In this document: one piece after another, positions 1 to 59,248 of the stretch
Layout: each line of letters opens with the position of its first letter
How positions within the stretch are numbered: position 1 is the stretch's first letter
Made by a program: the position numbers and the translations under genes
The notes under the pieces: generated by a model
Told to the model about the DNA's origin: nothing
Seen by the model: only the letters and a program-made list of their open reading frames with translations
Databases searched by the model: none
Origin: a virus
IMG/VR virus record: IMGVR_UViG_3300044818_000015
Location: 1-64,000 of that record
Direction: 5' to 3' (one strand)
Length of the DNA: 64,000 bases

Positions 1-167
1 TCAAGGTTCAGCATTTCTTTTGTCTCCATGGCGGTCACCGCGTCGAGTTTCTGCTCAATGCGGGCTAGTGCGGCTGTGTGGTTAAGGATCTGGCTGGATA
101 CCAGGGCCTCCAAAGCGGGCGAGAGATCGATCGTGACGGAGCCACTTACGTGGATAGAGAGATTCAT
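1..167 (-). CDS. Hypothetical phage protein, cut by the left window edge
   Basis: The first 55 codons of a gene that runs off the left edge. The start ATG (167-165) overlaps the stop of the serine recombinase by four bases (ATGA), which suggests translational coupling. The visible part begins MNLSIHVSGSVTIDLSP and continues as an amphipathic helix rich in Ala, Leu and Glu, a pattern of small coiled-coil phage proteins. No stop occurs in the visible frame. Function unknown. Being minus-strand and leftward, it could belong to the transcript that re-enters from the right edge if the genome is circular; that is inference. Confidence 0.6.
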   Translation of the reverse strand, partial: MNLSIHVSGSVTIDLSPALEALVSSQILNHTAALARIEQKLDAVTAMETKEMLNL

Positions 168-820
168 GCCGTTCTTCCTGCCTTCAATACCCGGCGTAGC
201 GTCGTAAGGGGAACTTTGAGCTGTCTGCCAATCGCGCGCATGCTCATGCCGCCGGCTTTCAGCTCCGCGGCGAGCTCTCGACGGAAAATCCTGGTTTGCC
301 CGCCGAGCGGCAGGTTTCTCTTGGACTTCGACTCGCGCTGCTTCCCTGCTCCCACTTTGCCCGCGGCGTAGAGCTTCTGGTAGTTGTCCACACCTTCCTG
401 CACGCGCTCGTGGATCATATCGAGCTCGAACTCGGCGAACACGGCCAGCAGGTGCATGAGCATCTTCGAAAGCGGGTTGCGCTTGTCCGTGTCGATTCCC
501 TGCGAGCAGGCGATAAAGCGGATGCCGAGGCTATCGAGGGTTACCGTGTTCTGGCAGAACTCGCCGGTGGAGCGCCCGAAGCGATCGATTTTCCAGACCA
601 GCACGACGTCGAACTTACGCAGGGCGGCGTCGGCCATGAGCCGTTTCAGCGCGGGGCGGTTGCTCCCGGCCTTGGCCGATTCCTTCTCCAGATACTCAGC
701 GACGTTCCATCCGCTGCGTTTGGCGAACTCCTGTAGTTCGCGCACCTGGTAGGCGTAATCCTGCTTGACGGTCGAGACGCGGCCGTAGATCCCAGCGGTA
801 AGGGGCTTGGCGTCGAGCAT
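164..820 (-). CDS. Serine site-specific recombinase (resolvase/invertase family)
   Basis: A 218-aa small serine recombinase that would cut and rejoin DNA through a phosphoserine intermediate. The N-terminus shows the catalytic signature YGRVST with the nucleophilic Ser near residue 17. DRFGRST follows near residue 80, and AEFELDMIHERVQEG lies where the long dimerisation helix starts. The C-terminus carries a helix-turn-helix (MSMRAIGRQLKVP). The length fits resolvases and invertases rather than large serine integrases. No inverted crossover sites were recognised nearby. It overlaps the downstream gene at 1-167 by ATGA and lies 43 bases after the 864-1379 gene. It could resolve multimers or invert a host-range segment; the sequence does not decide. 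Confidence 0.93.
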   Translation of the reverse strand: MLDAKPLTAGIYGRVSTVKQDYAYQVRELQEFAKRSGWNVAEYLEKESAKAGSNRPALKRLMADAALRKFDVVLVWKIDRFGRSTGEFCQNTVTLDSLGIRFIACSQGIDTDKRNPLSKMLMHLLAVFAEFELDMIHERVQEGVDNYQKLYAAGKVGAGKQRESKSKRNLPLGGQTRIFRRELAAELKAGGMSMRAIGRQLKVPLTTLRRVLKAGRTA

Positions 821-1687: not shown

Positions 1688-1828
1688 TTAGAAACGATAG
1701 CCGAGCAGGTAGGCGATCAGCACGACGATCAGCACGAGCCCGAGGCCTCCGCCGAGTCCGTTGTTGCCCCAGCGGTTGTAGCCGCCGCCACCAAAGACCA
1801 GCAGCAAGATGATAAGTAAGATGATCAT
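1688..1828 (-). CDS. DUF3309-like small membrane peptide
   Basis: A 46-aa peptide. Its start ATG overlaps the stop of the NusG-like gene by ATGA, so the two are probably translationally coupled. The layout is a hydrophobic N-terminus (MIILLIILLLVF), a Gly/Asn/Trp-rich turn (GGGGYNRWGNNGLGGG), and a second hydrophobic run (LGLVLIVVLIAYLLG). This two-segment, Gly-hinged plan matches bacterial DUF3309 peptides, which are common in Acidobacteria and Proteobacteria and have no known role. In a phage a small two-pass peptide could also act as a holin or membrane modulator, but nothing here proves that. Confidence 0.8.
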   Translation of the reverse strand: MIILLIILLLVFGGGGYNRWGNNGLGGGLGLVLIVVLIAYLLGYRF

Positions 1829-2349
1829 GGGGTAGCCTCCATTGGCTTGGGCGTTTCCGCCCGTTCGAGCAGATCGAGCGAATCGGCGTCGACTTCAGCC
1901 GAGATCGAGCGGTGCAGCATTTCGACCGACACGACGACGCGCACCAGATTCTTGGAATAGGCGACGTAACCCTCCAGGCCCGCGAGGGGGCCGCCGCGCA
2001 CTCGTACGCGGTCTCCCGCGAAGACGTAAGCGCATGGTTGGGCGAGGGAAGGGAAGGACGTAATCAGTTTCACGGCTGCAATTTCTTCGTCCGGTATCGG
2101 GATCGCGTGGCGGCCGGCTCCGAGGATCGAGACCACCTGGCTGATGGCGACTACCGGAGTTTTCTCTTCGAGGTCGAAGCGGCTGAAGACGTACCCGGGC
2201 ATGAACCTCAGTTCGGTGTCCCGCTTGCCGTCCTTGGACTTGGTGTCCAGGTGCGGGTAGAAGCTCTCGATGCCGGCGCCGTCCAGTTTCATGGCGACCA
2301 GGCCTTCGAAGTTCGAATGAACGTGTAGGGCGTACCAGAGCATGGGCAT
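1825..2349 (-). CDS. NusG/RfaH-like transcription antitermination factor
   Basis: 174 aa with the NusG-family layout. An N-terminal NGN domain begins MLWYALHVHSNFEGLVAMKL and includes FMPGYVFSRF. A C-terminal KOW motif follows (GDRVRVRGGPLAGLEGYV). Such proteins ride RNA polymerase and couple it to Rho, ribosomes or antitermination complexes. Specialised paralogues such as RfaH and UpxY/LoaP drive long operons. Two starts are possible (2349 and 2343); neither has a strong Shine-Dalgarno. A phage-encoded copy next to very long minus-strand operons suggests a processive antiterminator for them, which is inference. It is followed by the coupled DUF3309-like peptide. Confidence 0.88.
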   Translation of the reverse strand: MPMLWYALHVHSNFEGLVAMKLDGAGIESFYPHLDTKSKDGKRDTELRFMPGYVFSRFDLEEKTPVVAISQVVSILGAGRHAIPIPDEEIAAVKLITSFPSLAQPCAYVFAGDRVRVRGGPLAGLEGYVAYSKNLVRVVVSVEMLHRSISAEVDADSLDLLERAETPKPMEATP

Positions 2350-2430
2350 GCGTTCGGACAGCCTACGGCCCCTTCCTTTATAAAAAGGGTTAGGGAAAGG
2401 AACACCGGCACCGTGCCGGGCTGAGGACGT
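2350..2430. other. Short gap with a CCGGCAC/GTGCCGG palindrome
   Basis: Between two minus-strand genes. It contains the near-perfect palindrome CCGGCACCGTGCCGG at about 2410-2424 and an A/T-rich segment (TTTATAAAAAGGG). It could be a weak terminator or regulatory site for the NusG-like gene. Confidence 0.3.
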
Positions 2431-2886
2431 TTACGCCGCGGTGGGCGTCTGGAGCAGGCCTGCGGAGATGTCACGCGAGCCGGTGCGTTCGCTTTTGATG
2501 TAGCCGGACCGCTTTTCTTCGGGCACTACACTTTCGAGCAACTTGAAGGTAATCGTAAGGCGCTCAATCAATTCGTCAAGGCCGAGAATCCGCTTGAGCG
2601 CGGCGAAGGCTTTGGACTTATCGGTGATCTCGCGCTTCATTTCACGCGCGGATAAGTCTAAGAAATAGGTGGATCCGCCAGCGCCTTTTCCGGGCGTTCC
2701 CATAAGACGTACCGGCTTATCGGACGGCTTGCTGGCGCATTCTAACTGGAATTTCGCTTTGAGGTCGGCGAGTTCATCGCGTTCGGGTTTACCGGCGCGC
2801 TCCTTTTCAATCAGGAAAGCGCAACGGTCGATATCCTTGGGAGTGAGGGCAGGAGACGCGGGTTGTAACGCCGTGACGGTTCCCAT
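2431..2886 (-). CDS. Hypothetical protein, 151 aa
   Basis: The start at 2886 is chosen because GAGGAG lies seven bases upstream; the longer frame from 2910 lacks this. The protein is charged and mostly helical (ALTPKDIDRCAFLIEKER, LKAKFQLEC). It has a short Gly-rich insertion (GTPGKGAGGSTYF) and a region reading LKRILGLDELIERLTITFKLLE. No family recognised. It is the first minus-strand gene left of the divergent control region, so it would head the leftward transcript. Confidence 0.65.
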   Translation of the reverse strand: MGTVTALQPASPALTPKDIDRCAFLIEKERAGKPERDELADLKAKFQLECASKPSDKPVRLMGTPGKGAGGSTYFLDLSAREMKREITDKSKAFAALKRILGLDELIERLTITFKLLESVVPEEKRSGYIKSERTGSRDISAGLLQTPTAA

Positions 2887-2910
2887 GAGGTGCTCCTCTA
2901 TGGTGTGCAC

Positions 2911-2981
2911 CGCGGACCCTCCGCGAGCCTATGTTTGATGCCCGTTTCTGCGTTTCGCGCGGTTTTCGGGTATCAAACATA
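2911..2981. promoter_or_regulatory. Divergent control region with paired operator half-sites
   Basis: Lies between the leftward gene starting at 2886 and the rightward gene at 3039. TATGTTTGATGCCCG (2930-2944) and CGGGTATCAAACATA (2967-2981) form a 15-bp inverted repeat with one mismatch, 22 bases apart. Next to it, CGCGGACCCTCCGCG (2911-2925) is a perfect 6-bp hairpin with a 3-base loop. The spacing suits two dimer-binding half-operators flanking overlapping promoters. A TAAAAT box near 3014-3019 is a possible -10 for the rightward genes. The binding protein is unknown; the small HTH product of 3039-3446 is one candidate. Confidence 0.6.
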
Positions 2982-3038: not shown

Positions 3039-3446
3039 GTGGGAAGCATCGCCACCCAACCATTCGCACGAAAAGAGAGAGAAGTCCTGGAGCTGTTGAA
3101 GGCTCGCGTGACGATCAAGAACATCGGCGCGCTACTCGAACTCAGCACCAATACCGTCCGCCAGCGCCTGCGCGTCAGTTGCGAGCTGGCACAGGTCGTC
3201 GATGAGGTCGAGATGCATCTCTTCCTGATCCAGAATCCCGACATTCTCACCAGGGGCGCCACTTGCTTGCCCGGGCTGCACATTCCCATCATGGGAACCC
3301 CCATCGAAGGCGAGGCCGTGCCAGTCAAGCCGTGCGGCTGCGGTAACCCCGAATGTCTGGGGCCCGTGGCCATGCACGTCAAGACGACGAGCCGCGAGGC
3401 GGCTTCGGCCGCCGGCGAACCCCTGCCGCCGGAAGTCTTCAGGTAA
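3039..3446 (+). CDS. HTH-type small DNA-binding protein with a C-terminal Cys cluster
   Basis: 135 aa, GTG start. Residues about 8-45 read as a LuxR/sigma-like helix-turn-helix (REVLELLKARVTIKNIGALL, then STNTVRQRLRV). The C-terminus contains CGCGNPEC, a possible metal-binding knuckle. It is the first rightward gene after the inverted repeat at 2930-2981, so it may be the early regulator acting there; that link is inference. It heads a tight cluster with 3451, 3642 and 4010. Confidence 0.65.
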   Translation: MGSIATQPFARKEREVLELLKARVTIKNIGALLELSTNTVRQRLRVSCELAQVVDEVEMHLFLIQNPDILTRGATCLPGLHIPIMGTPIEGEAVPVKPCGCGNPECLGPVAMHVKTTSREAASAAGEPLPPEVFR

Positions 3447-33366: not shown

Positions 33367-36300
33367 TTATTGCCCTGAAAGCCGATTCATCTGCTCGATA
33401 ACTTCCTGTTGCTGATTCAGCGGGAGCTTCGGCCAGGCGGTCCTGATCTTCTTGTTAAGAATGGGAGTGAACAGGATACGTTCCTCGGGCGTGGTAATGT
33501 CCATGATGTCGAGCGCCGACATCATGTCGAGGGACTCGAAGCCCGCGACATTCTTCGGCACCTTGGCGCGCTTGAGGGCTAGCTTCACGTCATTTGGCGA
33601 GATCACGCCCGCGGCAATCTGCTTGCCGATCAGCTCGTTGGCTTCGTCGATCTTGTCGTCGCGCACCAGGCTGGTGATCTGGTTCTTCACCTTCACGCGG
33701 TCGGCATTGGCCGCGCTCGATCGCTGCCGCGCCAGGAACTCCGCATGGTTGAGGGCGTCCCCAGGCCGGCTGAATAACTGCGGCGTTGCCAGATCCACAG
33801 CCATACGCAGCCAGTGATTCGCGGGGTCGTCGCCGTGCGGCATCAGGCCCTTGGTCAGCCCGGTCGCTTCGCCGACGTTCTCGAGGAAGCCGTTCATGGT
33901 GACAAGTGGCGCCAGGGCATGCGCCTTCGCCCAGCCAGCCATTCCCGGCTTCTGCGTTTCTACCGCTTTCATAAGTTGCGGGTTAAACTTGCCGCGATCG
34001 TCGCGCCAGCCGGTGACGTATGGCTCGGTTCCGCTGAGGCCCACCCAGGCCGCACTGAACGGAGGGCCGAGGAGCGGATGCGCCGCAGCGTTAAAGGCGC
34101 CGGCGACGGCCGCGTCCATCAACTGGTCCGTGCTGCCGCCGGCCTTGTAGGCGTCGAAGGCTCCGGAGATGCCGAGAGCGCGCGCGCCGCGCTTCACGAG
34201 CGGCGAGAAGAAGCCGATATCGATGTAGGCGTCTCCATTCGACGGCGGGCCCCACAACTGTTGGGCCAGCCAGGTGGCACGCTGCTTATCGGTCAGACGC
34301 ACGGCCAGGAGCTTCGAGTGCGGATCTTTCCATGGCGGGTCCCCGCGCATCGCTTCGTGCATGGCGATCCACAGGGCGATCAGTCCCACCGCTCCGCCGG
34401 TTATTGCCTGCAGGGCACGCAGGCCTGCGCCGCCCTTGGGCATCGGTCCGCGGCCGGTCCAGGCGTTGACGCCATTCCGCGCCATGGTCGAGCCCGCGGT
34501 GTAGAACGGGCTCCAGCCGCTTTCCTTCGCAGCGCGCTCGATGCTGCCCTGCAGGGCGCGGGTGTAGTTGCCGAGTTGGTTGACCACCAGATACAGGTCT
34601 TTCGTCGTCGCTTGCGGGTACAGTGCTTTAGCGGCGCGATACATCACCAGCCGCGCACGAATGTCGATCCCCTTGGGACCATACAGGAACGGGCCGAAGC
34701 CGAGGCTCGCCTCAACATCCCGCTTCGCTGGTCCCGGCTGCCGTAGAACCATCGCGGCAAAGTCTTCCGCCGTCTCACGCAAAGCCCGCTTAATTTCGCC
34801 GCCGAGGGTTGGCTCGACGTCCGCACCCATTTGCGCGGCGTATTCCCGGCTCTTCTTGAACCAAGACGAGGCCATCGAGCCATATTTCTCTGGCACCACC
34901 CCGAGCTTCGCCATGTCGATGATGTCCTGGACGCTCTCCTCGGTGGTCGGATTGGTGTTGATCAAATGGAAGATGGCCGCCGCCCGCTTGGTGAATGGGT
35001 TGCCGCCTGCGATCTTGCCGGCGAGACTCGTCCCAAGGAACGGGGTATTCGCCACCAGGGTGCCGATAAGGTTCGCCGAGTGGATCACCGCATCGAGCGG
35101 TCCGGCCAGCGTGAACTGAGTGATCTTGCCGATGAGACTCGCGGGGTCCGACAAGTTGAGGTTGTTCTTGTCGAGAATCGGCCGCAGCTCCTCTTCGAGC
35201 CACGCCGCGGTAACCATGTGCTGCGCCGGCACAAATACGGATCCCTGTCCTGGCGTCACAATCTGGCGGTCCGGCTTAACCTCGACCTTCACGGCCTTGT
35301 AATCTTTGCTGCGGATCGCGATCGAGTCCGGCAGGGATTCGCCGCGGCCCAACTTCCGGCCGAGCTTGTTGTCTTCGAGCGCCTGGATCAGCGCCCCCTT
35401 ATTGTTGGCGCGGAACGCCTGGCGCAGCCGGTCGGCCAGTGCCTCCATGCCGGCGTCGTAGAATTCTCCATGGCCGGTGGCGAAATAGTTGGCGATGTTG
35501 GGAGGCTTGCGATACGGGACCGCGCGCCCCCAGCGGCCCTTGGCGTTCGGTTGCTCTTCATCCAGGCGGACCAGCGGGTAATAGGTGTCAAGCGGCCCAA
35601 GGGCGTTTGAAAGCACGCCTTCGTTCTCTTCGTGATTCTCCCGTACCGCATCCTCCACCAGCGTTTTGTAGACCTTCAGGCCGCCGGCGAATCCAGCGTG
35701 TTGGGTGATGTCCTGGTACTCGGTCTCGGGCATCATCCGCGCCACGCGCGCCGCCGCCCGCTCGAAGGTGTCCACCAGAAACGCACGCAGGCCGTCCATG
35801 TCGCCGCGCTCGAGGAGCGCCGCGGCCGTCAGCGCCGGGCTCTGGATCGGCACGCCGATACTCTCCTCATGAATCGCCTGGAGGGCGTGCATGACGCTTG
35901 CGAGGAATGCCGGCAGGTCATCGTTGGTCGATTGCGCCGCGCCTTCGGCCATGTTGTCCCAGCGTCCGCGCAGGCCGCGCAGCCGCGATTCGATCAGCGA
36001 TCGCCGGAAATTGAGCCAGCTCGGCCCGTTCTTCCCTAGTGCCGCTTCGACTCGTGGCGCCGCAGCCCGCATGAGCGCCACAGTTTGCGCGCGCGACGTC
36101 GCGGTCTGTACCGCTGCCGCGTGGGCGGGATGGCTTACCTTTTCAAGCTGGGAGAGGTTGCGGACGAGCTTGTTTTTGAGCGCGCCGGTCTTCGACTGGT
36201 AGCTGGCTGGTTCGTTTAGGGCTTTGCGGCGCCGGGCAAAGGCCGGTCCGTCTTGTAGAAGAAGTGCGGCTTGTCCTCGGGATCCTCCGGCGGCATGATT

Positions 36301-39300
36301 TCCTCCATGGCTTCCGCGAGAGCTTTGGGGCCCTGTCTCGCCGCTGTCAGCCCCTTGCGGTAATTCGCCTTGAGGCGTTCCAGATCTTCGTTCTGTTTCG
36401 GCGTTAATTCCGGCACGTAGCACCGCCTCTTTCATCATGGGAGCAAGGTTTGTGATGGCTTGCTCGACTGCTTTGGCTCCATGCTGCTTGGTGAGCAACG
36501 TGAAGTAGTGCGTCCCTAACTCTACCGCTTGCGGGCGGGTAAGTCCCAGTTCTTCGTACTGGCCGCCCACCAGGTGCGTACCGATTTCGGCGGCGATCTC
36601 GTTTTCGGGGTATCCCTTGAGACGCAGTTGCACCGCTGCGTCTTGCGCGAACGGGTGATCGAGTAATTCCTGCTCGTGCTCGCCGAGGTGCCCCTCTAGC
36701 TGGTCGATACTGAGGTGCCACTTCTCATGGCGCAAGGTGGCCGCGGCGCGCTGCAGGCCCGCGCTTCCGTTGACCAGCAACACGGATTGCTCGTTAGCCC
36801 CTGCTTTTTCGAGAGCGAGCGCCAGCGCCGGATGGGTCGGCATCAGCGCTTTCACCGCCCTGACGACGTGGCGCGGGTGCAGGCGCATGCCATCGAGCGC
36901 CGGATCTCCCCAGACTTGGCCGATCGCGGTTACGTTGGCCTGGTTCGTGATCAGCTTACCGGGCTGTACGGTGATCCGCAGTGCGCCCGGGTCCGAGGTT
37001 TCGCCGTCCGGCGTGCGGGCGAACAGCGGCTGTCCCTGCATCACCGAATCCACCATGGCAGGCGTGATGTCGATCGAGTGCAACGGCTGCAGCGCGCCTG
37101 GATTATCGGTGGCTACCCTCGCGACGAAGGCCTCAGCCTGTGCGCGGGTTTCAAATTCCCTTACGGGTTCGGACAGAGTATCTTGGCTATCCAGAACGGA
37201 GAACATCTGGCCGGCTGCTCCGCCGTCCTGCTCGTCGATAAATAGGTCGCCGGCGATTGACGGTTTATTTATCTGCGTCGTCCCTACCTTCGCGTCCCAT
37301 TTTTTCCCGTACTTCTTGGCGTAGTCGACCAGTATCTTGTCGTAGAAGCCCTTCATCCCCTCGCCGCCGACTTTCAGGTCCAGGCCGGTGAAGGTTCTGG
37401 CGGCAGGGTCGCCAAAGTCCGACTTTTCACCCTCGCCCGCTACGATCCTTTGCGCCATCTCCTTGCCGACGATATCTTCGAGCCCTTCCGCCGTGACAGG
37501 TCCAGTGCGGCCGGTGTCGTAAATTGTCTCTCCGCCCTTGGCATCGACTGTAAGATCAAACGTCCCTCCTTTGGCTGGTTTTGCCCAAATGGATTCAAGT
37601 TGCTGGCTCAGGTCGTACCGGTCCGCATGCGTCTCGCCGGTGTCCCAGGCCAGCCTGTCGTAGCCGTTTTCCGCCGCATAGCGCAGCATCCGCTTGAAGG
37701 CGAGCTCGTGCCAGGTCTTGGCGAATGGTGCGGGAGGGACGCCGCTATCATTCTTGTGCACGGTGGACAGGGTGTTCGCCTTATCGATCCACTCCTCGCC
37801 GAAGTGCTCGCGGAGAGCTTCGAGCCGTTTCGCCTTACTCGCCTGCGCGGCTTTACTTGCCTGTGCGTTGGTGTCGCCCGGCCTTTCGAAAAGCCATCCG
37901 AAAGTGTAAGGGGATAGGCCGAGGTCAACGCTGTTGAGATACGCCTCTGCTTGATTGCGCAGCGCGTCCCACTGGCCTCCCTGGTAGCCCTTCTTCTTTC
38001 CTTCCTGGTGCCAGTCGCTCTGAAGTTCGTAGACGTGCAGGATCTTCTCAGGTGGGGTGTAAGGCGTTCCGTCGGCGCTGGTCCAGCGATCGCCGAAACG
38101 GACGTGCGCGAGGACGTTGGGCTCGCTCCAGTGGGAGGAGCGGTAAGTGCCCGCGGTCTGCCGGGTACGCTCCATCCCGTTGGCGTCGGTGTAAGTTTCG
38201 CTCTTCGCGCCGGGCAGTGTCAGTAGCAGCTCGCGGTAGTTCTCGCCGCCCGGGGTGACGTAGCCGCCGTACTTGGCTACAGATTCCCTGGCGGGGCCCT
38301 GGTCAAGGTCAATCTCGATGCGCTCTGCTTCGACGGCATCCTTGGCCGCAGCAATAGAGTCAAACTCGCCGAGCGAGCCATGGGTGCTCGTAAGGCTGAA
38401 GCCGTCGTATCCTTTATTGGGCGTGATAGTGTAGCGGCCTTCCGGCGTGTCGGCGATCCAGTCGGGAAGCTCTTCCTTCCACGCCGTAGGCTCGAGCTCG
38501 GCGCCTCCGCCCTTGACCACTTCCTCGACCTGCACCTCGTTCGCCTTCACGAACGCGAGCACCTGCTCCCGGGTCACCGGCCCCTTGCGCTCTTCGAGCC
38601 AGGTATCGAGTCCGGTCCATTTCAGCTCATCGGCCTTCACTCCACTCTGCGGGTTGCGCAGCATGGCCAGCAGTTGACCTGGCACGGCCGGTCCTTTCAT
38701 CTTGGCCGCGATCGCGCGCTCGAGCTGGGAATAGAAGCCCGGGGTTTTGCGGGAGTACTGCGGTGTGTCCTTGAAACGCTCGGCCTGCTCTGCGTGAAAG
38801 GCCTTCCATGCCGCCGCGTCCGCCTCATAGAATGCCTGAGCGGCTGCGGTGGAATCGTCGTCAAAGGGGCGGTCCGCTTGACTCTTCTGGAATGCCTGGA
38901 AGGCGCGGTCTCTCTCCTTCACGAACTCGTCGACGCGCCGGTGCTGCGCGTTGTTAAACTCCGCCCGGCTCGCTATTACCTTTTCGGCACGTTGCTGGCC
39001 GGTCTGTGCCGCCGCCGGCGAAAGCTCGGCCAGCGATTGCTCCAGCCGTTTGACGGCCGCAGCAGCCGCGGCGCGCTCGCCCGGTATGGTGGCGCGCTCC
39101 ATGAGTGCCTTCGCCGAGCGTAATTGATCGGTTAGCCTGGCGCGGGGGTCCTGGAGCACGCGCGAGTACTGCGGCTTGTCCGCTGCCTTCGGCTGGCGCG
39201 AGAAGAGCGGCGCCTGCTCCGGCTCCTGGCCCTGGTCGCCGAACAGGCTATCGCTGCCGCGGTCTTTCGCCGGCTTCAGCTTGGCGGGCCTGGCCGCCAT

Positions 39301-42300
39301 ACCGGATTTGACCTGCGCCGTCAGTTGCGCGCCGAGTAGCCGGTCCGCGGCCGATTGCGTCTCTGCTTGCGAGCTCGCTTCCGCCACGCGGTCCACCAGC
39401 GAGGCCTGGCCGGCGATTTCGTGCGCCTTCGCCCTGGCACGCTCCAAGGTCGGATAGATCGTAACCGTGGGCAGGGTCTGCTCGGCATCGAGGTCGCGCA
39501 GCGTGACCGCGTATCCGTTCGGATGCCTGGTGACCACGGACTCGAGGCCGTCTTCGTGGTTGGTATAGCGCGCCAACACTTCGGGCGCCTGGCGCGAGAA
39601 CTGCGGCGCATCGGGCGGCGCCTCGTCCGGCTTCACCGGATAGGCTTCGAGAATGCGATCGAGGATCGCCCCTGTCGTGTTGGGCCCGTCCCCGTCGTAC
39701 TTCCTGGGGATGTAATACACCGGCGTGATGCCCTTTTCGGAGAGAGCGCCAAGGGTCAACAGATTGCGGGCGACGTCCTGGTTTGGCGGGAATAGCTGAA
39801 TTACCTGGATCCGTCCAATGATCCCGCGGCGTACCTGGGTGTTGCCTTCGAGGGTGTAAGTCAGGTTGTTGCGCAGCACGTCGTCATGGAGCTGCTTGGC
39901 GTCGACGGTGCTCTTGCCGCCCGAAATGCGATCGAGCAAGGCGCGAATCCGCGATTCGGGAATGTCGATACCGACCACGCGCTCGGCAGTCTTCGAGTCC
40001 GCGGTGGTGTAGATGCTGTTGCGGATGAAGGCTGCATCGCGGATCGGATTCCAGAAGCGCATCACTTCGCCGCCAATCAGGTGGTGATGGGTGGTGGTGT
40101 GAGTCGGCGCCGCGTCGTAGCGCTCCTTCCAAATATCCTTGGCCCATTGCTGGGGATCCTTGGCGATGGCTTCCGCCGCGGCCAGCGGCGCCCGCTGCGC
40201 CTCCACTTCCTTGGTGCTGGCGTCAACCCGCTTGCGCTGCCAGCTATCCGCCGGCATCTCGTACGCCTTAGCCTTGGCAAGGGCAGTCTTCGCCCGTTCC
40301 AGTGCTTCCTCCCGCCGGGTGCGCGCGAAGTACTCGAAGTCCGGCGCCGCCGCCTCATCCGCGCGGCCTTGCGCATAGCTTAGATCGGATTCCGCGTCGC
40401 GCACCCTCGAGGTGCGGTTGTTGTCTTCGTCCCGCTTCAGTTGAGCCTGGTCGCGCTCGAGGTCCCGCTCCGCGCCCTTCAGCGCGTCCTGTGCCTTGCT
40501 CAATTCCTCCTTCGCCCAGGTGTCCACTTCCTTGAGGCCCTTGCCGCGCAGCTCCGCCTGCGTGACCTTGAGCCAGCGTCCGCGTTCCGGCTTGGCGGTG
40601 TAAGACGACGGTTCGACGTTTCCGTCCGCGTGCACGGTCGGCGGGGCGTCGATCACCAGATAGAGCACGCCCTTCTCGTTGCGCGCGATCGCCGCATGCC
40701 GCTTCTCGTGCTGCAGGAGGCGCTCGTCCAACTCCTCGGGCGACACGCGCTCCGTTTTGTTCTTGGCGTCAACGGGATAGTAGTAAGTCTCCGCGCCGGT
40801 CTTCGGATCTTTGGCGAGTAATCGCTGTTCCTTTACTTCGATCTCATCGCCCGGCAGGGTTTTGACGCCGGTATCGAGCGTGCCCGCGGCGATCGCCTGC
40901 TCAACGGCCGCATTAAAGATGTTGAAGAAATAGCGATACGTCGCGTTTTGAATGTCCGGATCGAGCGCCATCAGCCGGTTCAGCAGCTTGGTGACGTTCG
41001 TCATATCCGCGGGCGGGATTTCGGGCCCGCTCGAGCCGAGCTTGATTACTCTGAGATCGGTGAGAACCTGGAGGCCGCTGAGCCCGGTGCCGGGTACGGG
41101 TTGGTTGCGGAGGAGTTGGGTATAGAAGGAGTTGGTCGCGGCGCGGCCCTGCTCCGTCTCAATGTTGGCGTTCTCGCCCATGGCGGAGCCCGCCGCGGCG
41201 TTCTTCTGGCCTTTGGTCAACGCGCCGAGCGAACCCAGGCGCCGCTGAATGGTCGAAACGAACCGTTGCTCGCCCGCCAGGTCGGAAATCAGGAAGACGT
41301 ACTCGGGCGGCTGCTTCTGGTTGGTGCGGTGGGTGCGGCCCAGCATCTGCTGCGCCTTGTCCGCGGACCAGCCCGTCTGCAGGGTGATGTGATAGCGCTT
41401 TTGCTGGTTGGCGACGTCGTTGCCGGCGTGCAGCGAGATTCCGGTACCGCCCGCCGAGGAGAGCACCGCTACCCGCTTCTTGCCGCCTTGGAAGGCGCGC
41501 ATCTCGAAGAGGTTGATTTCTTTCTTCGAGGCCTTGGGGTCGCCGCGTGGTACGAACTTGCCGATGGAGCGGTCATACTTCTCTTTGCGTCCTGTGATCT
41601 CCGCGACGTGCTTGTCTCCGCCCAGGCTGTTGATCAGGATGTCGAGCGGATTCTCTGGCATGTGCAGATCGCGGTTGAGCTTCGCAATCAGCGCATCCCG
41701 GGCTTCGACGGCCGCCGGATTGACAACCGGGATCTTACGGCCCTGCTCATCGTTCCGGTAAACCGGCACTTTGATGGGGTTGCCGCTCGAGTCTACGTCG
41801 TCGGCATACTGCTGGGTCGGGTAACTCGTGAGGACCATGTTGACCAGGGCTTCCTTCGGCCCGAAGTCATACTCCGGTAAATCGTCCGGATCCTCGTCCT
41901 CGTCGCGCTGCTTGGCTTTCTCGCGATTCTGCGCCGCCTCGTTGGTGTTCACCAGCGTGATCACTACCGACTTACCCTCGGCCAGCGCCTTATTGGCGAG
42001 CTCTACCGCGGTGGGCGTCTTGAGCGCGGTAATCAGTAGACCGAAGAAGCGCTGCTGTGCGCCGCCGAACGCGGACATGAAGTTGCCGCGCTGCTGCCGG
42101 CCGCCATTGGTCGTATTGGCGATGGTGGCTTCGGCGTGCTGAATGACGGAGGCCCAGGCCTGCGTTGCGGTGCGGTACAGGTCTTTCTGTTCCTTGGATA
42201 GCTTGTGGGTCTCTGTCTCGTAAGTGACGCCCTTGTAACTCAGCGTCCGCGCCAGATACTTGCCCTGCGCCTTGAGTGAGCGGGCGATCAGCTCCATCGC

Positions 42301-45300
42301 GGCAATGCCGCCTGGCCCGATCTGCGACTGGAACTCGCCGAACCCTTGCGGGAAGGCTGTCCCTGGCCCCCACTGGCCCAGGCGATCGAGATAGCCGAGG
42401 TTGATTACATCGGTCGCGGCCGTCGCCGAGAGAGAGACCGTGCGCAGCTTCGGCATGCGCGCCAGCAACTCCTTGGCCGCTACGCCCCTCTGGCTTTCCG
42501 AGCCGCCTTGGGCGGCGACGGCCGATTTGAGATTGTGCGACTCGTCCCATAGGATGTACGCGCCTTCGCCGTCGTCATCGCCGCGTAGATACGCCTCCAT
42601 CTGGTCGATGCGGCGCTGCCCGGTCTTATTCTTGCCGGTGAGCAGGGCATAGGTCGAGAACAATACGCCGTCGTGCTCGATCTTCTTGCCGTAGCCGAAC
42701 TTACTGAACGCCTGCACGGCGGGGTTCTCGCCCATCACGTTCTTGCCGTCCTCGATGGAGATTCCGCGCGTCAAGGCGTCCGCGCCGATGTTGCGGAAGT
42801 CGTGAATGGCCGCGTCCATCAGGTCCCACTTCTCGGAGACCCAGATCAGGCGCTTCCGTCCCTGGAGATAGTTATCCCAGAGGATGCCGGCGGAAATGCG
42901 GCCTTTGCCCACACCGGTTCCGTCGCCGATCAGCGCACTGGCATAGTGCCCGCCGGGCAGGACGATGGAATTCTGCTGGCCCGCGAACGCGATCGCTTCC
43001 ATCTGCACGGCGGAGAGGCGGCCGTTTTCAAGGACCGAAGGCGGCAGGGAGGGCTTGTAGGAGATGGGTGGCGGCTTTACGGTCGCCATCGTGCGGGTTT
43101 CGACGATATCGCCGGGATGCGCCGGTCCGGCGATCGAGGGGCGGTACGGAACGAACGGGCCGTTGTCGGCTTCGGCTTCCGGTTGGGGGACTTCTTCGAG
43201 GTTCGGGCCTAGTGTGAGAGTAGACGGTCGTTCGTCATTTGAGTCCGGAGGACGGCTTTCAGGACGTTCAGCGGCGGGAGTTTCGGGATGTCCCGCAGAC
43301 TCAGTTCCGGGTTGGACTCCACCAGGTAGTTTATCGCCAGCACCGGCTTGAACTCCCGCATGCTGACTACCAGATCCTCCAGGCTTTCCGGCAGGTTTGC
43401 CCGCTCGGCCAGTTCCTCGGCCGCCCGGGTGTACTCCTGGCGGCACTGCATCATCATTGCCAGGATCTGCGCCCAGGCCAGTTCCGGACTTACCGGGCCG
43501 AGGGCCATTACCGCCTCGCGGGACAGGCTCGATTTGCGGGCGATCGGCTGCGACATCTCTAAGAAGATTGTACGCCTCCTCAAGCGTCTCAACATTTCCC
43601 TGGAGCACGGAGTCCCAGGTTTTCACCGCGCCGGGCTTCACCTGCGAGGGCGTGGCCCCGTTCTTGTCGATGACAATGATCCGCGTCGAGAACGTGGTGC
43701 CGTACTTCTGGTATTCCTTGCCGGCGATCCGGATGTTGGCGCGCACGTTGTACTGCGCCGCAATCCGCTCGAACCATTTGCCCGAGGGTCCGGTGGTGAG
43801 GTTGGCGCCGCCGTTGGTGTCGTCGGCGCGTCCGCCGCCCAGGATCACCACCAGCCGGCCGTTCGGGAGGAGACGCTGGAGCGCCTGGTCTACGTGGTTC
43901 AGCCCATAGATCGCGCGGTTTGTGGCTTCGTGCGATTTGATGGCGCTCGCCGAGAACGGCGGATTCATCAGCACCACGGTCGGACGGATGGCCGGATCGA
44001 GCAGCGCGTTGATCAGCTCGCCGTCGTGCGCGGTCGGCTTATTGAAGCCGATCAGCTCCATCATTTGGGCGCGGCGCTCGGAGACCTCGTTGACGTGGAC
44101 TTCGGCGCCAATGGCCTTCGGCCAGATAGCAATCCCGCCATTGCCGGCGGAGGGTTCGAGTACGACGTCAGTAGGAAGGATGCCGCCAACTCGGGCCACT
44201 ACATAGGATTCGGTTGGGGGCGTCGAGAATTGCTGGTTGGCCAGTTGTTCATCGGTCCGGACGCTCTGCGTGGTGACGCGCCCCAGCAGCTCGCGCAGAT
44301 CTTTCAACGCGGCGATGGGGTCCATTTCCATCAGCGCCTTGCCGCGTTCGAGCAGCAGCTTGTTGATGCCGGCTTCCATGGCATCGAAGGCGTCTTTCGG
44401 GGTCCAGTCGCCCGAGGCGCGGGATCCGCCCAGGTGGAGCTCCGCCAGCTTATTGAACTCGACGACGTTGCCGAGCGAGCCGCCGGATTTCAGCTTGTCG
44501 TAGACGGCATCGATGAGCGCTTGCGCGGGATGCGCCGCGGGCTCAGGCTCAGGCGCGCTCGTCGACACGCCATTAATCTTGCGGATATCCGCCGGTTTGA
44601 TGTAGACGGAGCGGGCCGGCTTGTCGGTGGCCGGGATGCGTACTTCAATCTCGCCGCTACTGCCGTAGATCGCGACGACATTACCCTTGTGGATGCCCTG
44701 CGGGGAATCGAAGACCACAACATCGCCCTTGTTGACGACGGGCATCGGCTTGTCGGCTTGTACTGGTTGCTGATCGCCGGACGCGGGTTTCTCGGCCGGG
44801 GGCTTCATGGGCTCCACGGTCTTGCCGTTAATCTTCGCCACGGCGACGGCGAGACGGTGCACCTGGCGCAGCGCGTCTTCCGGAGTCTGGCCGGTTTTCT
44901 TGGCGTACCACTGGATCACCGGGCCGACGTCCTCGTTCATGCGGGCGAGCCAGGCGGCTTCGTCGGTCACGCCATCGAGCATGTGCTCGGCGCCGACCGT
45001 GGCCAGATCGATGCGCGCCTGCTTGATACGCGGATCGGGCGGGGTGGTTCCGTTGGCGCCTTCGGTGCGCGAGTATTGCGGCTTGTCGGGCTTAGAATTG
45101 ACTTCGCCATCTTCGGGCGCGATATTGGAATCAGGTGCACCACTGTTCGGCGAAGGAGTTTCGCCGCTCCCTTTGCGGGGGGTTCCGGGAACACTCGTAG
45201 TCCTCCCGGAAGGCAGAGGAACTTGACCGCTGGTTCCCGGGGGAGTCGGTCCGGGACCTTTCGGGGCTTCACCAACGCGGATTCTGGTGGTGAGGGCCGG

Positions 45301-48300
45301 CGGTTCATCTTCATATACGGTAAGCAGCCATTTCTTCGCTTTCCCGTCATAGTCCAGGCGCACTGCGGCTTTGTGCCGATCGTCAAATAGCCGAATACGA
45401 TTCGCTCCTGAACGCTTTTCATCCACCTGCATCTTCGGAAAGAACTCCGGGAGCTCGGCAAGAATTGCGGTGCGGCCCTTAGCCACCAGCTTGGCGACGC
45501 CCTCTCCGTCCTCGAAGTCCTTTTCTGGCGTGCCCGACTTTCCCCAGATGATGTCCACGTCCCCGAGGCGGGGGTCCGGGTGATATAGTGCCGCTACCGC
45601 GTCACCGGTCTCATGTTCGAGGAGCCACGAGATCGCGCCTTTGGCGTCGTGGTGGAACTGCCGGAGAATCGGCCCGTGCGATCCCATTTCTGGCTGATCT
45701 GTCCTCCGCGAGTACTGTGGTTTGTCGTCTTCCTCCAGCAGCGCCTTCATGCGATCGCGCGCTTCCTTGCCGGCATCGGCGAGCGGATTGGCTTTGGCGG
45801 GCGGCGCGGCCTTCTTCGGAGCGGACGGGTGATTTGGCGGGAATTTGGATTTCGGGGCGGGGGTTGCCGTGCTTGCGTCAACGGTGACGACCTTGCCGCT
45901 GTCTCTCACGGCCAGGGTGAAGGCGGGCTCCTGGTCGCCGTGGTTGTCGATGCGCAATACCTCGCCAGAATGCGCGGTACCGCCAGGCCCGTTGAAAGTC
46001 ACCCTTCCGCCGATAGGAAACCGCTTTTCCATGTCGGCCGTAGTGGCGCGAGCCGTGCCGCGCTTCGCCGCAATTGCGGCAGCCGCGGCGTCGACGGCCT
46101 CTTGCTCTTCGTCGGAGATCTCGGGCTCGGCGGGCTTTCCGGAAGCGAGCGCCTTGAGATCGGAGATCTGGCCCCGGAGAAACTGCTTATTCTCCTCACC
46201 AGCCGCCGCGGCGTCTTCCAGAATGGATTCGGCTATGGCGATGTCACCCCGGATCTCGGCGCGGGCATCCGCCCGGGCTCCAGCCGAATCGGAGCTGAGT
46301 GTCAACTCCCACTGCTTTTGTTTCTCGAAGAGGCTGTCGATGATATTGGCGAGCGCTAATTCGGCCTCGTTTTTAGCCCTGTGTTCCTTTTGAAGCTGGT
46401 CTTCGAGATTGGCCGTGTGCTTCTTGCTGATAGGGATCTTCTCGGCGGTGGTCAGGTCTTCCGTCACTGGCGCGGGAGCCACCGGTCCGGTCTTCGGCGC
46501 TCCGAACGCCTTGGCGAATTCCTCGACCGGATCCGGTTGCTCGAAGAACGATTCCGCGGTGGAGCGTTCCACATAGGCGCGGACCATCTTGGCGATCGCG
46601 GTGCCGGAATCCTTGCGCAGGATGCCGGCCAGGTGCTCCGCCCGCGGCGTCGTCTCCGGCCGCTGGCTGCCGAACATCTCGGGCTGGTCCTTGGCAAGCT
46701 GGCTGTTGGCGTCGAATCCGTGCGCCTTCTTGTAGTCGGCCTCGTATTCGATCAGCGCCGTGGCCTGGCGGACGTCGGGTGAAAGCGTCCAATCCGGACG
46801 CGCTTCGATGATGCGCAATAGGGGGGCAATGCGCTCCAGTTTGTTGCGCAGCGCGGGGGCGATGCGCTTAAACTGGTCGCTGTCTTCGAACAGGCTGCCC
46901 ATCACCAGCTTGGCTACGCGCTCCTTGGCGGCCTTGGTGACCGCGCCGCTGGTCGAATCGAAAAGGACGGGCCGCTCCTCTTCGGTAAAAATGCCTTCGC
47001 TGATGAGCCGGTTGACGATGCTCGGGCCCATCTTCGAGTTCATGATGTCGTTGAGCGAATCATCGGGACCGAAGGATTCGAGGACGGAGGCGAGATACTT
47101 CGCCAACTCCGGGGTGATGCTGCGGGCGTCTTCCGTTGCCTGTTCGGCAGTCGAGAGCTTTGCCGTGGGTACTTTGTTGAGGTCGGCGATTGCGCGTTGC
47201 TTGTCGATAGTGTCGTCGGCGATAACGCGGAACAGGCCCGGCTTTTTGAATCCGTCTATCCCGGCGGGATCGATACCGAACATGGGGGCGCGCTTCCTGA
47301 GCCGCTCCTGGTACCGCTTGGCAAGTTCAGGAATCTTGTAGGCGCGCTTCAGGGTGATGAGCCGGTTGTTGCCACCGAGGGCGTTGCCTACGTCCTCAAT
47401 GACGGAGGGGCCGTTGATCGCGTCGGGGTTGTCATTGATGAGATAAGCCTCATCGAAGAAGGCGGGCAGGCTGTTTTGGATCGGACGGGCCCGGTTCAGC
47501 TCGTCGCTGTAATCTCGGCCGTTAACGTATGGATAGTCGGGGTCTTCTTCGAAAGTAAAAGGATCGTGGCTGGGGCGAACGTCGTCTATTTCTCGGATGG
47601 AGTAATAGGCTTCGTAGGGGAGGGCTCTTCCCTTGACACGAATTTGCGTCCGTTCGCCTTTAATCTCTTTTCGGCCTGTTGGAGGCGGTTCAGGAAGCGA
47701 TTCTCCTTCGTCTCCACGCTGTCCTCGGGCTGAACGTGTTTCATCGGATGGCTCCTCTACTATAGGCGTTTTGTCGGCTGGGGGTTTTTCTTGTATTGAA
47801 CCTTCCTCAGATGTGGCGGTCGGTCCAGCGGCTTCGGTGGTTGTGGCAGGCCGGATGCGCTCCCAGTAAACGGTGGCTTCAACGTCGTCATCGTCGAATT
47901 TGACGCGAATGCCGTCCCGCGTCTTCGTGTTGGCAAAGCGTTTGAGGTCGACCATTTTGACCACTGCCGGGCGGTCGGGCTTCTCGCCGGGGATGCTTAC
48001 CAGGACGTGCTGGCCCACCGCGAAATCGTGGATGCCGGCGGGCTTCTTCAGATCCGGATAGTCGGCCAACACTTCCGGCGGTATGGTCTCGCCAACGTTC
48101 ATTGCCTTCCGGATCGCGGCCTCATGGCGCCGGGAGAGTTCCGTTGTCGGGACGCGGGCGGCGCCGTAGCGCTCCGGATCGCGCAATTCTCCTTGAATCA
48201 TCTGCGCAAAATCGTTGCCGGGGTTGTTGTAGTCGCCGTAGGTATCAGCGAGCGCGTTATGGCGCGCAGTCGTATCGCGACTGTGGTTCAGGAGGTCGGC

Positions 48301-51300
48301 CAGTTCCCGGTAGGGCAACTCCCAGGCGTGTTTGCCCTCGGCGGCGGGCTTCTTCTGGCCGCCCCACTCGCGGCCCTTGGCGGATGGCTCAAATTCGGGG
48401 ATGCCGCCCAGCTCGGCGATGACCGCGGCGTGGTCGATCTTCTTCGCGGTGGCGCGCTTCCGGAATTCGGCGAGCTTCGCCTGCGCTTCCTCGATTCGCT
48501 TGTCGCGATCGCTGATGTTCTCCCACGTCTCCCATTCGTAGCGGCCCTGGCCGGCGAATTGGGCATCGGCCTCGCGGGCGTGCTTCAGGGAGTCCGCAAT
48601 TTTCTGGAGAGCGTTGAGCGAGAGCTTGACCGATTGTTTGACGCGCTCGGGAACTTCTTCGGGCGCGTGCTGTGGCGCTTCGGCGGGAGGCGCATCGCCG
48701 GACGCGGGCGCGGGGGTTCCGCGCTTCTTCGCGATCGCCGCGGCTGCCGCATCGATGGCTTCCTGTTCCTCTTCGGAAACTCCTGCCTCGACGGGCTTCT
48801 TGTCTGCCAGCGGGTGTTGCGGGGGAAGCGTCTGCTTCTTCGGCGGGGCGGGTGGCTTTGGCTTTACGGCGGCCTTCCAGAGGTGATCGTGCGATGGCAC
48901 CTGAATCACGCCGGGCTTGGCGTCCTTCGCGATGCCTTTGATGCTGTCTCGGACCGCCACACCACCGGTGCGGATCTCCGCTTCCTTCAGCCCGGTGTGC
49001 TGTGCGACGAAATCGACGTACTTCTGATCGTGCTTCGAGGGAGTCTTCTGAGCTGCAATGTACGCGGCCTTGTCCAGGTCGTTCTCGAATTCCAGGGTGA
49101 ACTGTTTCGGCCCGTAGCTGTAGCGCGGGGCGGCTCCCTGGAGAGCATGCGGGAGGATGGCGGGAGTTGCAGATTGTGGCTGTTCAGCCACATTACTTAC
49201 TTGACTAAGCTCTGGTTTTTCTTCGGGCGCCGGCGTCTCGTTTTGGAGGGGAGGCACATCGCCGGACGACGGCTGCGCTTCCGCCGCGGGCTTCCCTGTT
49301 AGCGGGATTTCGACTATCTTGCCGTCTTTTCCGCTGAACGTGAGCGAATCGAGGGTGATCGTTCGTCCGGTGACGTTGCGAATGATGCTCCCGTCGTATA
49401 ACTCGCGGTGTGTCCCTGGCTTCAGGTAGGCGATGGTGACGTGTGGCTTATAAGTGGGGAATGTGTTGCCGGTGTGGTCGACGGCATCGCCGACCAGCTT
49501 ATTCAGCTCGTGCAGCTCGGGCGAGTCTACGTCTACCTTGAGGACGTCCGGTCCGCCGTCCGTACCCTTAAATATGGAGGTCTTGCCGAAGGTGACGGTG
49601 ATCGGTCCTTGCCCTTTCAGAATTTCCTGAATCGGAGTGGGGTCCGCGCTGGGGTTGCCGTATTTGACGGTGACGTGTATTTCCTTCTCGCGGCCGTCGC
49701 TGGCGTCGCCTCCGGTTTTCTCCCCTGCTTCAACGTGTAAATGCTCATCGGGGATGGCGGCGCCGAACTTGCGCACTGCATCCGCGATATCCTCCGGCAT
49801 GTTGACCTGGGTAGAAGAGTAGTCGTGAGTTTGAGGGGCAGTATCATCATTTGATACCGGCGCTGCTTTCTCTTCGGGCGCGGGCTTCGGCTTGCCGGCC
49901 GCGGGCCGCGCCATGGCGGCGTCCACGTCGGCACGCAGGGCATTGTCGAGCGATTCGTATGGTTTACCGTGCCGCGCCATCGCAACGCGATCGCGGGCGA
50001 TGCTCTCCGGCGTTGCTTCGGGCGCGGCAGCCGCGGGTTTCGGCGGCACGTCGTCGGCACCGTCATCCGGCTTCGGCGGTTTCGGTGGCACGTCATCCGG
50101 CTTCGGTGGTTTCGGCGGAACATCATCGGGCTTTGGCGGTTTCGGCGGAACGTCCCTCTTGCCGGTCCGTTGGAATTCCTTCTCGAGAATGGAATACGCC
50201 GCTTGGTTGCGCCGGAAGATAGCCGGGTCGACGCCGGGGTTTCTGTCCGGATGGGACGCCATCGCGGCCTTGCGGTACGCGGCGCGCACCTCTTCGAACG
50301 TCGCGTTTCGGTCGACGCCTAGAATATCGCGGGCTTGGTCCTGGGAAAACTCCGGAGATCCGCGGGGCCGTCTCTGTCGCCGGGCGTCATCCTCCTCACG
50401 CTGGCGCTTTTGCCGGGCTTCTGATTCCTCACGTTCGCGCTTGAGTTTGGCTTCATATTCCGCTCGCCTTCGCGCGGAGGCATCTGCGCTTTGGTCCGGA
50501 GGTGGCTTCTTGGTGCCATCGCGTGCGGCCGTTGTCTCCTCATACATCTGCCACATGCGTTCGTCGGTGTACTGGTGGCCGCTGGCGGGGTCTTCCCACA
50601 TCCCTTGCGCGTTTTTCTTATAGAGGTTGTCGCGCCATGTCTCGTAGGGGCCGGGCTTGTAGCCGTCGTCGGGTGGGGGCTTCTTGGGTCCGCCGCCGCC
50701 TTCCCGCTTAAACTTCTCAAAGAGGGACTCTTCGTCAAATTCATTGCCGTTAGTTCGGTCCTTTGACTGCCAGCGATCTTCGGTACCGTGTTGCTCGTAA
50801 AACTTGTCTCGCCACGCATTAAATTCTGGGTCGGGGGCGCCGCCCCTTTGCTCGCTGCGTCCATGGGTGCCAAAGCGTTGGTTATACTCAGCGTGCAGCG
50901 CTTCATCGGTGAAGGTGTTGCCCGCAGTGTCTTCCCAAGTGCCTTGCGCCGTCTGCTTGTAGTTCTTATTGCGCCAGTCTGAGTAGAAGTTTCTAAATCG
51001 GTTGGGGCCCGTGCCGTGGGAGCCAGGGTCGCCGCTATCCGGTGGGGGCTCGTCAACGATTTTCTCTGCTTCGCCGGGCTTGAACTTGAAATTGAAGATG
51101 TCGCCGAGTTTCTTCTCGATGGCGGTAAGCACCTTTTCGCGGTATTCCGGACCGGCCGCGTGGACAAAGGGCAACAGGGTCATGGCGGCATGGCCCACCA
51201 GGTCGCCGGCCGTGGCTGGCGACGGGTCTTGCTTGAAGCGCTCATACACTTCAGGTAGGTCTTTCGCCATAGTGGTGGCGAAATATGCATCGACGCCCGC

Positions 51301-53001: not shown

Positions 53002-54468
53002 TTACAGGGTTCCTGCGGCGCGCGCGGCTTTGACGGCCGCTTCCGCTTCCGGACCATCGGCTTTGAATCCGCGGCTGACTGCGCCTTGACGGATCTGGGC
53101 CTCGGTGTACTTCTTGGTTGCCGGCGGCGGATCTGCGGCGGGTTTTGCAACTTGCGCGCCACGGCCGCCGCCGTTAGGGGGAGTGGCCCCTATCTTGGTC
53201 AGCTTCCCGTCGGCTCCTACGCTGAGGCCGGGTGCCCCGCTGGTACCGCTGTTGGCGAGCTTATAGTTACGCAGGTCCCCGCCCTTGATAGCGCGCAGGG
53301 CTTTCAGCACCCCACCGCGGTTATCACCGATCGGATGATTCTCGTAATAGTCGGTGTTGGCGACGTTCTTGATCGCGTCGTCCACGCCCGCCCCACCGTT
53401 TGCGTTGCTTTCGGCAACGGCTTGGTAGGCGAGAGCCAGGTCCTCGTTGGCGCGCTGGGGAACCGTCTCGTGCTTCTTGGCCCGCTCGGCGGCGTCCTCT
53501 CTGAGTTTCAGGCTCTTAGCGCGGTCTTCTTCCGATTGCTTGGTGCGCCGTCGCGTTTCTGCGTCCATGGCCGCGGTCCGGTCGGCAGCTTCGATCTGCG
53601 CGGCGGTCATGCCCATTCGATTGAGGCTCTGCATCGCAGCCGGGTTCACCTTGCCGGCGGCGTCAAACGGTGGAGCGCCGAACGAGTCCGGCGGCAGTTC
53701 GCTGTCATTGATGATCTGGTTCCACTGATTCAGCTCGGTCACGCCGCGCAATTTGCCGCGGGTTTGATCGATCTTGGCCTGCTGCAGGGCGAGCTTCGCC
53801 TTCTCGGCCGTGGCCGTCTCCGCCGCCAGCTTGGCGTCGGCGGCGAGTGAGGCGTGCGTATTCAGCTCGTTGCGCATCGCGGTGACGCCCTCGCGGCCAG
53901 GGAATTCCCCGAATGTCTTCAGGGCTTGCGCGTGTTCGTCGTTGCTGGTCAGATTGTCCCGGTTAAACCCCTCGAGGATCTTCGGCCAGCGGGCTTTCAG
54001 CTCGTCGTCCGTCAGGTCTAAGGCCGAAGTCAGCCGGTCCCGCATGGCGCCGTTCTTCTGCGCCGTGGCGTTGAATTTCTTCACCCCCAGGTCGACGTCG
54101 GCTTCATTCTGTTTGGTCAGCGCGAGCGCGTGATCGTCCAGGCCCTTGCGGACTCGCGCGATTCCCCGCGTCGACATCCCATTCTGGGTAGCCAGATCCA
54201 GGAACTTCTTCGGATCTCCCTGCGCAATCTTGAATTGGGTGTTGCCGATCTCCTCGTCCTTCTGGTCCTGCTGCATCTCCGCGGCCTTCATGCTGGCTTC
54301 CTGCGCCTGCGCCTGGTGTTGCTGGAGAATCAACGGATTGAGCTGGGCCTGCTGTTGCTGCTGCGCCTTCATGTTCTGCAGGGACATCATCTGTCCATAC
54401 ATTTGCATGGGGTCGTTGAGCTGCTGAGTAGGATGTCCAGCTTGTAGTGGGATAGAAGCGTCGATCAT
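53002..54468 (-). CDS. Internal virion / ejection-type protein, 488 aa
   Basis: The Gln/Met-rich N-terminus (MQMYGQMMSLQNMKAQQQQQ), long coiled coils (AETATAEKAKLALQQAKIDQ; RRTKQSEEDRAKSLKLREDA) and a Pro/Ala C-terminus match ejection (internal virion) proteins of podoviruses. Its position between the 54794 gene and the giant polyvalent protein is where P22-like phages keep their ejection proteins. It ends nine bases before the giant gene's ATG. Confidence 0.65.
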   Translation of the reverse strand: MIDASIPLQAGHPTQQLNDPMQMYGQMMSLQNMKAQQQQQAQLNPLILQQHQAQAQEASMKAAEMQQDQKDEEIGNTQFKIAQGDPKKFLDLATQNGMSTRGIARVRKGLDDHALALTKQNEADVDLGVKKFNATAQKNGAMRDRLTSALDLTDDELKARWPKILEGFNRDNLTSNDEHAQALKTFGEFPGREGVTAMRNELNTHASLAADAKLAAETATAEKAKLALQQAKIDQTRGKLRGVTELNQWNQIINDSELPPDSFGAPPFDAAGKVNPAAMQSLNRMGMTAAQIEAADRTAAMDAETRRRTKQSEEDRAKSLKLREDAAERAKKHETVPQRANEDLALAYQAVAESNANGGAGVDDAIKNVANTDYYENHPIGDNRGGVLKALRAIKGGDLRNYKLANSGTSGAPGLSVGADGKLTKIGATPPNGGGRGAQVAKPAADPPPATKKYTEAQIRQGAVSRGFKADGPEAEAAVKAARAAGTL

Positions 54469-54482
54469 AAAAAGAACCTTTT

Positions 54483-54534: not shown

Positions 54535-54556
54535 AGTTTCCGGTAGAACTTAAAGG

Positions 54557-55738: not shown

Positions 55739-55740
55739 GT

Positions 55741-56777: not shown

Positions 56778-56778
56778 C

Positions 56779-59240: not shown

Positions 59241-59248
59241 CGCATGAC

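Follow-up and report, generated by a model that had tools for sequence, protein, structure and literature searches.

How RNA polymerase could be carried through a long late operon that ends in a giant gene is the question raised by a locus in the virus record IMGVR_UViG_3300044818_000015. The window analyzed here, a stretch of 64,000 bp, comprises bases 1-64000 of this 90,044-bp record. An earlier note, made from the sequence alone, had proposed that the minus-strand gene at 1825..2349 encodes a NusG paralogue, that it stands at the head of leftward transcription and that it may serve as a late antiterminator. We find that this gene (hereafter nusG) is preceded on the same strand by a conserved 16-nt element (2357..2372) and by a gene of a helical protein, gene X (2431..2910), and that this cassette recurs upstream of unrelated late modules. 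Judging from these sequence comparisons, the nusG product is probably a NusG-type processive antiterminator that would be loaded in cis to serve the phage late operon.

The NusG paralogue and the leftward gene run

The nusG gene starts at its first or third codon (2349 or 2343) and encodes a protein of 174 aa with NGN and KOW domains. The identification as a NusG paralogue was borne out by matches to the Pfam NusG family (E 2.1e-15, better than the cut-off) and to phrog_6386, "transcription antiterminator" (5e-18), and by alignment of E. coli NusG structures to residues 4-156, i.e., to both domains. The protein can thus be classed, by sequence, as a specialized paralogue of the NusG/Spt5 family with an NGN followed by a KOW domain. 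Among NCBIfam subfamilies it scored best with UpxY (76.1 bits, E 3e-21, against a cut-off of 100), followed by LoaP (51.8 bits, cut-off 125), RfaH (47.5 bits, cut-off 144.5) and NusG, with every score under the curated cut-off. By these cut-offs it is predicted to fall outside the RfaH, LoaP and UpxY families, so that of the designation "RfaH/LoaP-type" the paralogue stands and the membership of RfaH or LoaP does not.

At the position of RfaH F56, which matters for RNA polymerase affinity, every aligned phage member has Phe where E. coli NusG has Leu, and the Rho-contact residues I164-F165-G166 are replaced in the phage members by MLH, SAE, MLE, GIE or MLA (roles of both sites from PMC7593976). 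For paralogues of the antiterminator type, changes of these two kinds have been proposed as the early steps (PMC7593976), and the phage residues appear to be of this type. The RfaH autoinhibition residues E48, I93 and F130 correspond to L, I and V in the window protein. An AlphaFold model built from six relatives matched NusG and RfaH structures in the PDB by Foldseek (best E 6e-9); in this model, which is of moderate confidence, the C-terminal domain consists of five strands without helices.

Since 127 bp are exactly identical at both ends of the record, its edges join, giving a unit of 89,917 bp. Such an overlap is what a closed assembly would show, and the record closes into a circle; the edges would equally be joined if the overlap were a direct terminal repeat. 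The nusG gene is part of this circle, which is a phage genome, and was found again in eight further viral contigs; it is not a host gene outside phage coordinates, a possibility that the earlier note had considered. The continuity on which that note had made its proposal depend is also present: minus-strand genes continue across the joined ends, through the late module, to the giant gene. Measured leftward from 2910 to 33367, where the giant gene ends, the run comprises 59,461 bp. Of the 42 genes predicted in it by a simple codon-usage gene caller, 40 are on the minus strand; the remaining two are small, at 78 and 94 aa.

Past the window, the minus strand encodes the small terminase subunit TerS (record 87192-87680, placed by its position and by homologues in relatives, without a direct match), the large subunit TerL (85676-87217, phrog_5902 type), a P22-like portal (79327-81681, Pfam 4e-149), the scaffold (67723-68799) and the major capsid protein (66477-67718). 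The late module occupies 53002..64000 (minus strand) in the window, with the remainder at record 64001-89917; its in-window part holds head-closure and ejection-type genes ahead of the giant polyvalent protein gene (33367..52992, minus strand), which encodes 6,541 aa and forms the far end of the run. The domains of the giant protein are DnaJ, 2'-5' RNA ligase/anti-CBASS Acb1-like, ddrB-ParB and Strawberry-notch helicase; it is a possible candidate for an injected counter-defence protein. When 45 early-region proteins were compared with PHROGs, the 25 top families included no sigma or Q-like one, which is weak evidence in favor of nusG as the late switch.

Recurrence of the cassette and its conserved element

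Scans of viral and genome collections with the single window protein sequence returned no match; queries with alignments succeeded. A TerL query retrieved two contigs, L009, in which X, nusG, recombinase and TerL follow one another as in the window, and L010, which shares the window order from the end of X onward. A three-row NusG alignment added L011, L012 and L013 (59-61% identity) and L014 (47%). A scan with gene X only retrieved L129/L130 (X 46%), where nusG is again directly downstream; recovery of nusG neighbors by an X-only scan constitutes an independent test of the linkage between the two genes. In total, the eight other contigs represent five further lineages (L009/L010, L011, L012/L013, L014 and L129/L130), or six with the window, near-identical contigs being counted once.

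In those contigs, X precedes nusG wherever that side is present, and a terminase lies downstream where the contig is long enough. The downstream terminases belong to phrog_5902 (window and L011), phrog_31467 (L012), phrog_3717 (L014) and the phrog_10250 type (G007, the record behind L130); the TerL of L009 was assigned to phrog_5902 through its 61% identity to the window TerL. At least four terminase types are thus encoded downstream of the X-nusG pair, and the phages that carry it include podovirus-like as well as long-tailed ones. G007 has a portal different from the P22 portal of this phage, and also a tape-measure protein; at the level tested, the two phages have in common only X, nusG, the recombinase and one small early-region gene. 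G001, the unclosed contig behind L012, repeats the layout of the window: X-nusG is present, the late genes share one strand, and this strand also carries, at the same operon end, a gene of 4,901 aa that is a partial homologue of the giant gene. The same cassette in otherwise unrelated phages suggests a portable late-gene switch.

The closest TerL (78%) was found in a further contig, L008:1-9437, yet X-nusG is absent there from the 4.4 kb upstream of TerL, which hold homologues of window 26883-28654 on the opposite strand; so the phage family appears to be mosaic at this locus.

Intergenic regions between X and nusG align poorly apart from one block, the element, which reads GGGGCCGTAGGCTGTC on the minus strand of the window and has the family consensus GGGGCCGNAGGCTGYC. 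It is kept between X and nusG in all six lineages, as GGGGCCGAAGGCTGTC in L009 and L011, GGGGCCGGAGGCTGTC in L010, GGGGCCGAAGGCTGCC in L012, GGTGCCGTAGGACTGCC in L014 and GGGCGCGGAGTGTGTC in L130. For the best 16-mer common to five intergenic regions, the mismatches add up to 9; in 500 dinucleotide shuffles, this sum never fell under 22. The circular genome has a single copy of the element, and no second site comes within two mismatches of it. L010 and L009 are 99.9% identical except for a 440-bp cargo gene in L010 (L010:122-561, 142 aa), inserted directly 3' of the element and the sole large difference over 6.6 kb; the single mismatch in the block to the left of it is the variable loop base of the element. 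By these comparisons, the conservation of the element appears strong.

Two roles were rejected for the element: that of a nusG ribosome site, since the cargo gene in L010 or about 70 nt in L012 intervene between the element and nusG, and that of a promoter, no constant second box being found after the element. An exact scan of 2.9 million viral contigs with the element returned 99 stretches, with nusG only in the five already known; the remaining matches are apparently due to chance, and a search with just the element does not serve to locate such loci.

The element folds as a 3-bp stem round a GNA loop (core C-GNA-G). Across the six distinct element sequences, each of the 18 pair cells holds a standard pair. 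Both partners have changed at two of the three stem positions (G-C to C-G and C-G to G-T). All four mismatches of the L129/L130 element fall within the two outer stem pairs, with pairing retained in both, and the outer pair of L014 is kept when one A is bulged. Such covariation was equaled by 15 of 500 shuffles and is not equaled by slid versions of the element; a site with up to four mismatches, the stem and the GNA loop is expected by chance 0.002-0.004 times per ~50 positions.

The ops hairpin of E. coli has a stem C3:G8 and a loop G4-A7 with T6 flipped out, and coincides with a consensus pause (PMC5995543). The ops element itself, GGCGGTAGNNT, is not present in the leader; a related but different sequence, GGCCGNAGGCTG, agrees with it at 8-9 of 12 positions. 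Alignment of the window element with ops gives 9 of 12 equal positions in the same pause register, a resemblance that can be called only suggestive. The earlier note had advised looking for an ops-like or hairpin element near the leftward promoter, and the conserved hairpin between X and nusG answers to that description. It is a candidate for a cis-acting site in the early part of its target transcript.

Gene X, the operator and neighboring features

Gene X (minus strand, 151-159 aa, ATG at 2886 likely) lies directly upstream of the element and nusG; its structure prediction had a predicted local distance difference test (pLDDT) score of 51, too low for interpretation. It is the first minus-strand gene past the inverted repeat at 2930..2981 and nusG is the second, in agreement with the early position given to nusG in the earlier note. 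The repeat, taken there as a divergent operator, was confirmed: its arms (2930-2944 and 2967-2981) are 15 nt each, 93% complementary and spaced 22 nt. The leftward promoter is presumed to be located at this operator. The divergent region ahead of X holds inverted repeats (2930-2981; L009:1270-1340; L120:15986-16038) at the same place but of different sequence; those of L009 and L011 take the operator's place but differ from it in sequence, as if repressor specificities varied while the element stayed constant. A small helix-turn-helix-type gene (3039..3446, plus strand) is divergent from X and has a weak homologue in L009, divergent there too.

Downstream of nusG, a small serine recombinase is encoded at 164..820 (minus strand); it was also found in L009, L010, L011, G001 and G007. 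A possible RNA hairpin, CCTTT-TTAT-AAAGG (2375..2388, minus strand; weak), lies directly 5' of the element, and comparable but non-homologous hairpins exist in some relatives. A common upstream RNA hairpin, suggested by eye, was dropped, as z-scores of leader RNA folding were not significant and RNAalifold gave the upstream hairpin no consensus support. The GC hairpin CCGGCACGGTGCCGG (2405..2419, minus strand), located after gene X, is weakly terminator-like and was not seen in the relatives.

Further observations concern other parts of these genomes. Two paralogous late-operon proteins, both of phrog_12985, are encoded at 59249-60043 and 63002-63658 (minus strand). The rightward early region encodes a von Willebrand factor A-like domain protein (4010-4597, plus strand), whose match is under the Pfam cut-off. 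In the long-tailed relative, L130:6929-7453, in the same strand run downstream of nusG, is sigma-factor-like by eye.

Proposed mechanism, alternatives and comparison with known systems

We infer the following course of events. RNA polymerase would start at the operator-controlled leftward promoter, transcribe gene X and reach the element (2372-2357). At this site, the phage NusG paralogue would be recruited by a short hairpin in exposed non-template DNA (or in the nascent RNA), probably together with a pause; the paralogue would occupy the host NusG site on polymerase without recruiting Rho. It would then remain on polymerase over the following 59 kb, allowing transcription of the structural genes and the terminal giant gene; if true, this would account for one transcript reaching a 19.6-kb gene that lies 40-60 kb from its start. 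Because the element is upstream of nusG in one transcript, the first loading events would increase nusG expression further, i.e., by positive feedback.

No strict intrinsic terminator was found in the 59,461-bp run, and a role against such terminators is unsupported. For this reason, the paralogue would more likely be needed against Rho and pausing. These are also the main targets of RfaH, which is considered important for giant-protein operons (PMC7819879).

Several points weigh against such a mechanism. With no strict terminator in the run, the target of antitermination may be Rho, pausing or weak terminators. The covariation comes from one lineage (L130) among only six. Of same-letter shuffles, 2.4% resemble ops at least as closely as the element does (9 of 12), and so do 0.5% of the 16-mers in the genome. 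The structural model has a pLDDT of 68, and the RfaH residues that read ops, K10, H20, R23, Q24 and R73, are not conserved, being H, K, G, A and S in the window protein; their absence would be expected if a different element is read.

Recruitment could also proceed through RNA structure and not non-template DNA, the late operon still being antiterminated; the structure would be a LoaP-like hairpin or the upstream CCC...GGGG and GCC-GNA-GGC hairpins. LoaP does bind a small leader RNA hairpin (PMC12691694), the hairpin is conserved, one pair in L130 being of the G-U type, and the upstream hairpin abuts the element in several members. However, conservation of the element sequence, with its unpaired GG and TGYC, is stricter than that of the stem, the element falls in the consensus-pause register, and neither folding z-scores nor the consensus fold support the upstream hairpin; we regard this variant as rather unlikely, if worth keeping in mind. 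That the element instead is a leader or translation signal, or an autoregulatory protein site, for nusG or X, with the paralogue acting generally on host transcription (e.g., by competing with host NusG), would fit its place between X and nusG, within ~20 nt of the start codon in four lineages. The 142-aa gene of L010 and the ~70 nt of L012 speak against it, as do the lack of a Shine-Dalgarno consensus and the location of the cassette at the head of the late strand wherever this can be judged, and we consider it quite improbable.

Phages do acquire host genes, and nusG might be a host paralogue gained by accident that plays no part in late transcription. Bacterial genomes do contain distant NusG paralogues: scans of them returned a single one, L015 (31%), from a Nitrospira metagenome-assembled genome. 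No close bacterial relative was found in these scans, and the X-element-nusG order is kept in six lineages with otherwise unrelated late genes, which makes chance acquisition very hard to accept. A serine recombinase is encoded in the same operon in most members and the L010 insertion begins exactly at the 3' edge of the element, as might be seen if the element were the crossover site of this enzyme and nusG a passenger. But each genome has one copy, none stands at the other end of the L010 insert, and known small-serine-recombinase sites are longer than 16 nt; this explanation is barely credible.

Plasmids and prophages were already known to carry NusG paralogues (PMC7593976), and PHROGs includes a phage family, so the kind of protein is not new. 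In the open literature (subscription journals being outside coverage), we found no paper on a phage NusG paralogue controlling late genes, nor on an element of this kind. Recruitment sites of NusG paralogues beyond RfaH and LoaP are mostly unknown; comparison of unrelated phages here narrows the candidate site to 16 defined nucleotides, whose stem pairs covary and which adjoin the presumed reader, and the question becomes directly testable. Loading of a NusG-type antiterminator in cis, if true, would add NusG replacement to the known routes of phage late-gene control. The wider claim, that gene X, the GNA-loop hairpin element and the NusG paralogue form a portable cassette of a new class, which loads a substitute NusG in cis, moves between phages whose packaging and tail modules are unrelated and takes the place of Q in lambdoid phages, is made tentatively, as one that may well hold but could as readily fail.

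Among known systems, RfaH/ops of E. coli shares with the phage the NusG family, Phe at position 56 and an altered Rho loop, as well as a short hairpin element in the transcribed leader in consensus-pause register, and long target operons, including giant-protein operons (PMC7819879, PMC5995543). Unlike rfaH, the phage nusG lies within its own target operon, downstream of the element; its protein lacks the ops-reading H20, R23, Q24 and R73 and the autoinhibition residues E48 and F130, scores far under the RfaH cut-off and has a NusG-like KOW C-terminal domain modeled as beta strands. The phage element has a 3-bp stem and a GNA triloop, in contrast to the 4-nt GGTA loop of ops. UpxY of Bacteroides capsule operons, the best subfamily match, is also encoded at the head of its own operon and acts in the leader that precedes its gene (PMC7819879), but the phage operon is a late and not a capsule operon, and no UpxZ partner was seen in the phage. 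LoaP of Bacillus with its dfn hairpin likewise combines a leader hairpin with a NusG paralogue of a long operon; however, LoaP reads a UNCG RNA hairpin, where the phage has C-GNA-G, and acts against intrinsic terminators, none of which (by strict definition) was found in the phage run. Plasmid ActX of tra/pilus operons is, too, a resident NusG paralogue in a long transfer operon of a mobile element (PMC7819879), although borne by a plasmid and not by a phage.

The earlier note had envisaged replacement of lambda-Q-type control. Its proposal of a late antiterminator is supported as a probable one, but the layout, with the presumed loading site and the gene in one transcript, is nearer to lambda nut-N than to Q. 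As in lambda, the presumed regulator is phage-encoded, has a cis site and would control a whole transcript, early for N and late for Q. The nutL site lies upstream of N within N's own transcript, as does the element relative to nusG. Unlike the phage protein, N and Q are not NusG homologues, and whereas N works with host NusG, the phage NusG would replace it.
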